Of a stretch of DNA of 64,000 bases, positions 489-48,444 are shown in pieces. Source of the DNA: Candidatus Limivivens intestinipullorum (GTDB lineage: Bacteria > Bacillota > Clostridia > Lachnospirales > Lachnospiraceae); assembly GCA_018711185.1 (NCBI GenBank), contig DVIQ01000019.1, positions 59,879 to 123,878 on the forward strand, in the 5' to 3' direction. Both the position numbers and the translations under genes were made by a program. A model generated the notes under the pieces. That model was not told the DNA's origin. It was given only the letters and a program-made list of their open reading frames with translations, and searched no databases. Every line of letters begins with the position of its first letter. Position 1 is the stretch's first letter.

Positions 489-517
489 GTAACGGTTCAG
501 CAGGGCTGAACCGTCAC
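489..517. repeat. Copy A, solo 29-bp palindrome GTAACGGTTCAGCAGGGCTGAACCGTCAC
   Basis: Inverted repeat; flanks GAAATGAC (481-488) / GAAATGTC (518-525) match 7/8; intergenic between acsA and cooC. Confidence 0.85.
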
Positions 518-3563: not shown

Positions 3564-3697
3564 GTAACGGTTCAGCTTTGCTGAACCGTTACATGCAAAA
3601 TCCATTTAAAATCGCCTGCGGCGATGGGATTTTGCACTCCTGAATCACATTCTTACGGTCTGCGCAGCATGTGCGCAGACCTGGGCTGTACAGTTAC
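3564..3697 (-). repeat. Copy B, full-length element (134 bp) with three hairpins
   Basis: Perfect GTAACGGTTCAGCtttGCTGAACCGTTAC, GCAAAATCC..ATCGCCtgcGGCGAT..GGATTTTGC and GGTCTGCGCAgcatgTGCGCAGACC, ending CTGTACAGTTAC. Its reverse complement aligns along its length with copy C. Confidence 0.92.
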
Positions 3698-25449: not shown

Positions 25450-25501
25450 ACGATTTTAAATGGATTTTTCATGTAACGGTTCAGCAGGGCTGAACTGTTA
25501 C
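25450..25501 (+). repeat. Copy F, 5'-truncated element ending in the intact 29-bp palindrome (25473-25501)
   Basis: CGATTTTAAATGGATTTTTCAT followed by GTAACGGTTCAGCAGGGCTGAACTGTTAC, matching the distal part of copies B and C. Confidence 0.85.
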
Positions 25502-33896: not shown

Positions 33897-34943
33897 ATGC
33901 TACATATTTTGTTGGTTATACTGAAAACAGCAGGAATCATCCTGGGCGTGGTTCTTCTTCTGGCGGCGGTTTTGATCGGCGCGGTACTCCTGGTTCCGCT
34001 CCGCTACCGTATTGAAGGGCGGTGCGGGCCCAAGGAAAAGGATGCGGCCCTTTCGGTGACCTGGTTTGGAAGGCTGATCCGGGTACAGGCCCGGGCTTCG
34101 GCGGAAAAGGGCGTGGCTGTGGAGGCTAGGGCGGCGTGGATTACGCTGCTGCGCTTTCCAAAAGGGAAAGACGGTTCGGGAAGAAAGAAAAAAATAGCCG
34201 GACGTCCGCCAAAATCCGGCGCAGCGGCAAAGAAACGGCGAGAGAAGCCGGGAGAGAAAGCGGCCCACAGAACAGGGGCCGTGGATGCGGAGAGAGAAAT
34301 TCGCGCCGAGCATCCGGCCCGGAGAGAAGAAGCCAAGGGCCCGGCAGCACAGGGTGTACCAACCCGCAGCGCAGGACCGGAAAAGACAGAGAATGAAGTC
34401 CGGGCCGACTCCGGCGAGGGGCGGATCAGGGGACTGCTGACTGCCCTGTGGGAAAAAGGAAAAGCTCTTTTTCACTTTCTGGCCGCTTTGCCGGAAAAAA
34501 TCCGACAATGCCGGGAAAGGGTTCTGGGATTTTTCCGGAAACTGAAGGAAATCGGCAGCCGGTGGAGAAAACTTAGGGAAAAGATCTCCTGGTATCTGGA
34601 AATTTGGAAAGAGGAGGAGACTTGGCGTTTGCTGAAGGCAGGAATGGAGCATCTGCGCTATCTGTGGCGGCACTACCGGCCCAGACGATCTGAGGGATTC
34701 CTGCGCTTCGGCTTTCCGGATCCTTCCGTTACGGGACAGGCCGCGGGGGTTTTGTATCTTATCTTTTCAAATCCGGGCAATACCATCACCCTTTGTCCGG
34801 AGTTTTCCACAGATGTGATCATCGGCGAGGGGGAACTGATGATAAAGGGGAGGATACGGCTCATCCATCTGGTGAGGACCGGTTTTTCTCTTTTTCGAAA
34901 TCAGGATCTGCGCCATTTCCTGAGACGAATCCGGGAAAAGTAA
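33897..34943 (+). CDS. DUF2953-type membrane protein with long charged linker
   Basis: N-terminal TM; C-terminal FGFPDPSVTGQAAGVLYLIF typical of DUF2953; next to gerW-like gene. Confidence 0.8.
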   Translation: MLHILLVILKTAGIILGVVLLLAAVLIGAVLLVPLRYRIEGRCGPKEKDAALSVTWFGRLIRVQARASAEKGVAVEARAAWITLLRFPKGKDGSGRKKKIAGRPPKSGAAAKKRREKPGEKAAHRTGAVDAEREIRAEHPARREEAKGPAAQGVPTRSAGPEKTENEVRADSGEGRIRGLLTALWEKGKALFHFLAALPEKIRQCRERVLGFFRKLKEIGSRWRKLREKISWYLEIWKEEETWRLLKAGMEHLRYLWRHYRPRRSEGFLRFGFPDPSVTGQAAGVLYLIFSNPGNTITLCPEFSTDVIIGEGELMIKGRIRLIHLVRTGFSLFRNQDLRHFLRRIREK

Positions 34944-35019
34944 CAGTTCAGTTTTGCACTCCTGAATCACGTTCTTACGGTCCGCGCAGCATGTGCGCAG
35001 ACCTGGTCTGAACTGTTGC
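34940..35019 (-). repeat. Copy D, internally deleted element (80 bp)
   Basis: GTAACAGTTCAG|TTTTGCACTCCTGAATCACGTTCTTACGGTCCGCGCAGCATGTGCGCAGACCTGGTCTGAACTGTTGC; flanked by CGGGAAAAG direct repeats (34932-34940 and 35019-35027). Confidence 0.9.
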
Positions 35020-36196: not shown

Positions 36197-36225
36197 GTAA
36201 CGGTTCAGCAGGGCTGAACTGTTAC
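36197..36225. repeat. Copy G, solo palindrome GTAACGGTTCAGCAGGGCTGAACTGTTAC
   Basis: Family match; flanks GCGCGGAC / GCGCAAAC (6/8). Confidence 0.85.
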
Positions 36226-41682: not shown

Positions 41683-41817
41683 GTAACAGTTCAGCCCAGG
41701 TTCGCGCACATGCTGCGCGGACCGTAAGAACGTGATTCAGGAGTGCGAAAATCCCATCGCCGCAGGCGATTTCAAATGGATTTTCGCAGTTACGGTTCAG
41801 CAAGGCTGAACTGTTAC
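41683..41817 (+). repeat. Copy C, full-length element (135 bp), inverted relative to copy B
   Basis: GTAACAGTTCAGCCCAGGTTCGCGCACATGCTGCGCGGACCGTAAGAACGTGATTCAGGAGTGCGAAAATCCCATCGCCGCAGGCGATTTCAAATGGATTTTCGCAGTTACGGTTCAGCAAGGCTGAACTGTTAC; flanks ACAATTCT / ACATTTCT (7/8). Confidence 0.93.
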
Positions 41818-47393: not shown

Positions 47394-47426
47394 GCCCCTG
47401 AGAGGGATTACAGAAGATCACGAATC

Positions 47427-47455
47427 GTAACAGTTCAGCAGGGCTGAACTGTTAC
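47427..47455. repeat. Copy H, solo palindrome GTAACAGTTCAGCAGGGCTGAACTGTTAC
   Basis: Flanked by perfect direct repeats CACGAATCG at 47419-47427 and 47456-47464. Confidence 0.93.
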
Positions 47456-47493
47456 CACGAATCGCCTCCCCGGGAGGCAGAAAAGAGGTCATT

Positions 47494-48444
47494 ATGAAAG
47501 GTATGAAAAATTTGAAACGTGCCGCGCTGATTCTGGCGGCTGTAAGCTGCTGTGTTTTCTCTGGGGGTATGACGTCCAGCGCGAAAACGGCGGTTTCCGA
47601 GGAGAAGACGGTATATAAGCCTTCCGTACTGACAGAGGTAACGGCCAAGTCCAGAAAGGTGCAGGTGTACGTCTATGAAAACACAACGCTGTATGTGAAA
47701 GCGGGGAATAAACGGATTTACAAGAAAAGCTTTTCCTCGGAGGGCGTAAAACGAATTACAATTCCTGCCCAGAAAAAGGGAACGACCCTGTCTTTCTGGC
47801 TTGTGAATGAGAACAATGGCAAGAAAGGCGCCGTGGTGAAGACCAGGGTTCTGGCAAAAAATACCTCCGCCCGGGTGGAGGCTCCAAAAGTAACCCAGGA
47901 AGGACAGGACCTTCTGATTAAGGGAGAAATGGGGGACAGAGTCTATGTCCGCCAGACCAGAGGAAGCCGAAAAAACAAATGGTATCTGGTCGGAGTGATT
48001 ACCTCGAAGAGAGGACTGAAGGTCCGTGTGGAGACGCCAGATGCGGATTCCAAAACCATCCCCTGCATGGTGCGGCTGAAGGGGGCCAACGGCAAGTTCA
48101 GCAAAACGGTGACATTAAAGCTGCGTGCTTCGGATTTCCCCACAGGCGTGGAAGAGCAGAACTCCTGGGATAAGCAGACGGGGGATCTCGAACCGCAGTA
48201 TGTAAGTGGGAAGATGCGGATTGTGGAGAAAGAAGAGAACTCCCTTCTTTTGCAGGACAGCCGGGAACAGCTCTACTATGTTTCCCGGAGCGCGGTGAAG
48301 AAAATCCTTACAAGCGGCAGTCTGGAAACGTCTTTCGCCAAATTAGAGAAGGGACAGGATGTTTGGATTTACTATAACGGTGAAGTGATGGAGAGCTATC
48401 CGCTGCAAATTTCGGAAGTTTTGGAAATGATGATTGCGAAGTAA
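47494..48444 (+). CDS. Secreted basic protein with C-terminal YobA/DUF3221-like region
   Basis: Signal peptide; C-terminus EKEENSLLLQDSREQLYYVS...KLEKGQDVWIYYNGEVMESYPLQ. Confidence 0.7.
   Translation: MKGMKNLKRAALILAAVSCCVFSGGMTSSAKTAVSEEKTVYKPSVLTEVTAKSRKVQVYVYENTTLYVKAGNKRIYKKSFSSEGVKRITIPAQKKGTTLSFWLVNENNGKKGAVVKTRVLAKNTSARVEAPKVTQEGQDLLIKGEMGDRVYVRQTRGSRKNKWYLVGVITSKRGLKVRVETPDADSKTIPCMVRLKGANGKFSKTVTLKLRASDFPTGVEEQNSWDKQTGDLEPQYVSGKMRIVEKEENSLLLQDSREQLYYVSRSAVKKILTSGSLETSFAKLEKGQDVWIYYNGEVMESYPLQISEVLEMMIAK

Follow-up and report, generated by a model that had tools for sequence, protein, structure and literature searches.

Bacterial MITEs, such as MITEAba12, are short, non-coding elements with terminal inverted repeats and target duplications (PMC6382973). 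Members of the IS66 family of insertion sequences are recorded with 8-bp direct repeats (PMC3281130), and both IS66 insertion with 8-bp direct repeats and the classical IS66 terminus, GTAAGCG, have been described (PMC11946415). In REPINs, the longer inverted pair is mobile and singlets are its remnants, with singlets also arising by deletion between two REPs (PMC3116915).

The palindromes described here, from a Lachnospiraceae genome, can be compared with each of these systems. Like bacterial MITEs, the family is short and non-coding with terminal inverted repeats and target duplications; unlike MITEs in general, one of its ends is a near-perfect 29-bp palindrome that repeats the opposite terminus. 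With the IS66 family it has in common the 8-bp direct repeats, termini beginning GTNA and a PF03050 transposase in related full-length elements, and it departs from that family in its GTWAC-N-GTTCA termini, which are not GTAAGCG, and in a MITE that carries no gene. The resemblance to REPINs and REP singlets lies in short palindromes present in hundreds of copies and in a decay that resembles that from REPIN to singlet, whereas the true 8-bp target duplications, the DDE-type termini and the absence of any associated RAYT seen are unlike REPIN/RAYT systems. The kind of element is already known; the element itself was found in no description in the literature searched, which was covered in part, and has no Rfam match above the gathering threshold.

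The palindrome at copy H and its genome-wide class

The window, a stretch of 64,000 nucleotides of Candidatus Limivivens intestinipullorum, contains a perfect 13+3+13 palindrome, copy H, in the layout CACGAATC / GTAACAGTTCAGC-AGG-GCTGAACTGTTAC / CACGAATC(G) (Table 1). An earlier note described the palindrome as bracketed by a perfect 9-bp duplication, and CACGAATCG is present at 47419-47427 and again at 47456-47464. The perfect repeat abutting the element stands, but its exact unit is 8 bp, since the ninth matching base arises from the G with which the element starts and a chance flanking G at 47464. Counting both strands, the window contains four occurrences of the 8-mer CACGAATC, where 2.1 are expected; two of the four flank copy H.

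Table 1. Coordinates of copy H, its surroundings and further family members in the window
Feature	Position	Strand
Left copy of 8-bp target duplication, CACGAATC	47419..47426	.
Solo 29-bp palindrome (copy H), GTAACAGTTCAGC-AGG-GCTGAACTGTTAC	47427..47455	+
Copy H left arm; A at position 6, like MITE left termini	47427..47439	+
Copy H right arm; equals outer right terminus of 134-bp MITE	47443..47455	+
Right copy of 8-bp target duplication, CACGAATC	47456..47463	.
Downstream gene, 316 aa; DUF3221-like C-terminus slightly under Pfam cut-off	47494..48444	+
Full-length 135-bp MITE; duplication acaattct/acatttct (7/8; 8-bp flanks each side)	41683..41817	+
Full-length 134-bp MITE; decayed duplication (5/8)	3564..3697	-
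Second solo 29-bp palindrome; duplication gcgcggac/gcgcaaac (6/8)	36197..36225	+
Third solo 29-bp palindrome; duplication gaaatgac/gaaatgtc (7/8)	489..517	+
80-bp internal-deletion derivative of MITE	34940..35019	-
Right-end MITE palindrome with inner motif; left part missing	25473..25501	+

The host genome (G000), a 3.77-Mb draft in 118 contigs that includes the window, harbors approximately 330 palindromes with the core GTTCAGCNNNGCTGAAC at up to 2 mismatches, compared with 1 for a reversed control pattern. Flank statistics were drawn from an exhaustive scan of 1.62 Mb of this genome for palindromes with up to 6 mismatches, and expected values from left and right flanks re-paired at random. 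The scan returned 172 palindromes: 93 that adjoin a conserved inner motif (…AAATGGATTTTGCAT), together with 79 that are solo-like. Perfect 8-bp flanking repeats surround 15 of the 79 solos (0.05 expected), and a match of at least 7/8 is seen in 26 (0.33 expected). Each of the other repeat widths (4-7 and 9-12) gives at most 2 perfect matches among the solos, and the same test applied as a negative control to the 93 motif-linked right-end palindromes gives a single perfect 8-bp repeat. The sequence of the flanking repeat varies from copy to copy at a constant 8 bp and a constant offset. The excess at 8 bp indicates that 8-bp target duplications are a property of the solo palindromes as a group, of which copy H is among the cleanest cases.

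Several features of the duplications and their arrangement were recorded alongside. The 52 perfect duplications in the host genome, 9 of which come from elements counted on both strands, are A+T-rich (39% GC vs 52% for the genome) and frequently end in C (24/52), which suggests a target preference. At G000:C109:56184-56265, two solo palindromes share three tandem copies of gccaaata/gccaaatg, as if a second insertion had targeted the duplication of the first. At C107:11769-11820 (contig coordinates offset by 4999), a second terminus, GTAACCG, immediately follows a duplication.

Loci without the palindrome were sought in relatives. Neither of the two congeners examined aligns at the copy H locus, and the related-locus search found no relatives of the downstream 316-aa protein. 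For another solo (L114:7003-7031), the congener G002 is without the palindrome, in an intergenic spacer too diverged for a single target to be read. Paralogous empty sites within the host genome gave nothing convincing among the few sites tried. When GTDB species genomes, possibly excluding records of the window's own genome, were searched for the 29-mer, it was found in one organism, Lacrimispora saccharolytica strain An817, whose five copies include two solos flanked by perfect 8-bp duplications. One An817 solo, identical to copy H and perfectly duplicated (L275:6777-6805), disrupts the reading frame in the final codons of a regulator gene, which we take to be a conserved ArsR-like regulator with an alpha-L-arabinofuranosidase-like neighbour. 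When the An817 flanks are joined at one duplication, the reading frame ends …VRINYSPMKTGE and stop; the interrupted gene instead continues into an aberrant tail. In other genera, thirty homologues have the same end point without palindrome or duplication, the closest ending …VRISYSPYDTGNK and stop. The uninterrupted homologue ends are the empty site that insertion predicts, seen at another locus of this element family. Together with the copy population, they strongly support what the earlier note had proposed for copy H, namely insertion with target duplication, and copy H is best regarded as a genuine transposon footprint with an 8-bp duplication.

Copy H precedes the start codon of the 316-aa gene by 38 bp and is predicted to fold into a very stable hairpin in the leader RNA, so that it could influence expression of that gene. 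A second perfect hairpin, GCCTCCCCGGGAGGC (window 47464-47478), lies directly after copy H in the same leader.

A 134-bp MITE and related IS66-like elements

An element of 134-135 bp (GTAACAGTTCAGCCCAGGTCTGCGCACATGCTGCGCGGACCGTAAGAACGTGATTCAGGAGTGCAAAATCCCATCGCCGCAGGCGATTTTAAATGGATTTTGCAT then GTAACGGTTCAGCAGGGCTGAACTGTTAC) has the motif-linked palindromes as its right end and carries terminal inverted repeats GTAACAGTTCAGCC, of which 14 bp are perfect in the 134-bp form. This element is non-coding, contains no gene and is too short for a transposase gene; as single-stranded DNA it folds far better than shuffled sequences (z -8.1). After removal of double counts, 74 unique copies with both ends are present in 1.62 Mb, 58 of them 134-136 bp long. 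Perfect 8-bp duplications flank 28 of the 74 (0.03 expected), and 35 of the 74 match at 7/8 or better. Terminal inverted repeats (13-bp arms in copy H), a target duplication of fixed length, and short multi-copy units identify the element as a MITE, a non-autonomous DDE transposon, and the palindromes belong to the same high-copy family. Related MITEs in four further genomes (G095, G015, G113 and G104) also have perfect 8-bp duplications.

IS66-like elements in other members of the bacterial family have the ends GTWAC-N-GTTCA[C/G] and 8-bp duplications. One is a 2358-bp element (L214) with ends GTTACTGTTCAC / GTTACTGTTCAG and the perfect duplication gccggaat; another, of 1984 bp (L252), has GTTACAGTTCACACCC at both ends and the perfect duplication gtattaga. 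A 2249-bp contig (L245) starts and ends with GTTACTGTTCA, as collapsed multi-copy insertion sequences do, and three more loci (L248, L250 and L251) have matching termini on both sides. The DDE_Tnp_IS66 domain (PF03050) was detected above cut-off in L205 and L206, L214 and L252 being found by homology; related transposases score just under the NCBIfam IS66 cut-off (172 and 151 vs 180). Terminus type and duplication length of the MITE match those of IS66-like transposases of related genomes. The MITE ends are GTAAC/GTTAC-N-GTTCA and not the classical GTAAGCG, which was seen in another IS66 element of the bacterial family (L188); the MITE is for this reason tied to a divergent IS66-like group and not filed as classical IS66.

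Candidate autonomous partners with similar ends were found in related genomes and none in the host genome, where a search for homologues of the L205- and L214-like IS66 transposases returned nothing. It is therefore likely either that the MITE is stranded or that its partner falls in a gap of the assembly. Two candidates within the host genome were rejected as partners. The classical IS66 on contig C72 lacks such termini. The 1785-bp unit on contig C44 has its own ends and its own duplication within a palindrome; it is an IS4-family insertion sequence with a 448-aa transposase (NF033592 above cut-off), true ends CCAATGTCAGTTAGTTAAG that are not shared with the palindrome, and the 8-bp duplication GGCCTGAA inside a solo palindrome. 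The IS4-family element is intact at L092:10487-12233 (G000:C44:30487-32233), and the palindrome that received it still shows its own outer duplication, ctttttat/ctttttct.

At several loci, among them L068 ~6470, L116 ~5350 and L124, a further repeated unit was noticed in which the ends GTTACTATTCAC / GTGAATAGTAAC enclose CACAGCAGCCGCAAACACCTG. Its terminus resembles the IS66-like GTTACTGTTCAC, and it may be a sister MITE.

Origin of the 29-bp palindrome

The earlier note left open whether the 29-bp palindrome alone or a precursor that collapsed to it is the mobile unit; of these, a collapsed precursor is favoured. Copy H is read, with a probability of roughly 75%, as the remnant of a MITE that was inserted with an 8-bp duplication, moved by an IS66-like transposase and subsequently collapsed. 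In the proposed sequence of events, the MITE would have inserted at the copy H locus and duplicated 8 bp of target, having been moved in trans by an IS66-like transposase from an insertion sequence now absent from or unassembled in the host genome. The interior would then have been lost by slippage or recombination of the left terminus, GTAACAGTTCAGC, with the right-end palindrome's inner arm, GTAACGGTTCAGC, and the product would be exactly the 29-bp palindrome between the original duplications.

The structure of the MITE bears directly on this proposal. Its left terminus and inner arm are 13-bp direct repeats (12/13) placed 105 bp apart, so that a single deletion gives exactly a 29-bp solo with the duplication kept. 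An end palindrome that repeats the opposite terminus predisposes the element to exact collapse. Internal deletions of other lengths were each found once or twice, compared with many instances of 29 bp, which marks the 29-bp product as special. Position 6 distinguishes the two repeats, with A in 46/57 and G in none of the MITE left termini, and G in 49/57 and A in 7 of the inner arms. Among 36 solo left arms there are 11 A, 23 G and 2 C, copy H having A; this mix differs from both left termini (p=4e-12) and inner arms (p=0.03) and is what crossovers to the left or to the right of position 6 would produce. Against this reading, no locus was seen with the 134-bp element in one strain and the 29-mer with the same duplication in another, and the host genome yielded no L205- or L214-like transposase.

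Alternatively, the transposase could use the two 13-bp arms as ends and move the 29-mer directly, making 8-bp duplications; the MITE right-end palindrome would in that case be one of these units contained within a longer element. The many solos with perfect duplications, near-perfect palindromes included, agree with this, as does the inner-arm base G in 64% of solo left arms. Position 6 of the right arm is C in 13/36 solos compared with 6/57 MITEs, an excess which suggests that some solos come from a subfamily poorly represented among present MITEs and which counts against collapse and for direct movement. Direct movement is in turn opposed by the left-terminus base A in copy H and 10 other solos, and by the fact that deletion between the direct repeats already predicts a product of exactly 29 bp. 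Two 13-bp ends placed 3 bp apart, moreover, would leave no DNA for joining the ends in a normal transposition complex. Divergence does not separate collapse from independent mobility: solos with good duplications and MITE right ends show mean mismatches of 1.88 and 1.55 (p=0.32), and without a clear difference in divergence solos need not be older. Direct use of the arms as ends is considered unlikely for these solos, and the corresponding proposition that the 29-bp palindrome is a complete transposon, moved by an IS66-like transposase that acts in trans and duplicates 8 bp of target, is doubtful to the same degree. Collapse of the MITE is preferred to a 29-mer that jumps independently, but is not proven.

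Spread of a REP-type palindrome by a RAYT, a Y1 (HUH) transposase, would account for the high copy number of short intergenic palindromes, and the genome contains four Y1_Tnp genes or fragments, none seen with flanking palindromes in a non-systematic check. The 8-bp duplications, the 14-bp terminal inverted repeats and the 134-bp inverted-repeat parent point instead to a DDE transposase, and to our knowledge REP/RAYT systems make no such target duplications; this origin is very improbable. Even less credible is a chance pair of CACGAATC or an operator-type regulatory direct repeat that encloses a leader hairpin. The element does lie in the leader of the downstream gene with a strong predicted hairpin, but the repeat differs at every copy, always at 8 bp and at the same offset, as a target duplication predicts and a conserved operator does not.

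If the 29-mer did move by itself, it would rank with the smallest transposable units on record. The favoured collapse shows concretely how a 134-bp MITE could become a 29-bp solo hairpin. In a Lachnospiraceae genome, palindromes that look like REPs can be the footprints of DDE-transposase MITEs, with countable 8-bp duplications, and not RAYT REPs.
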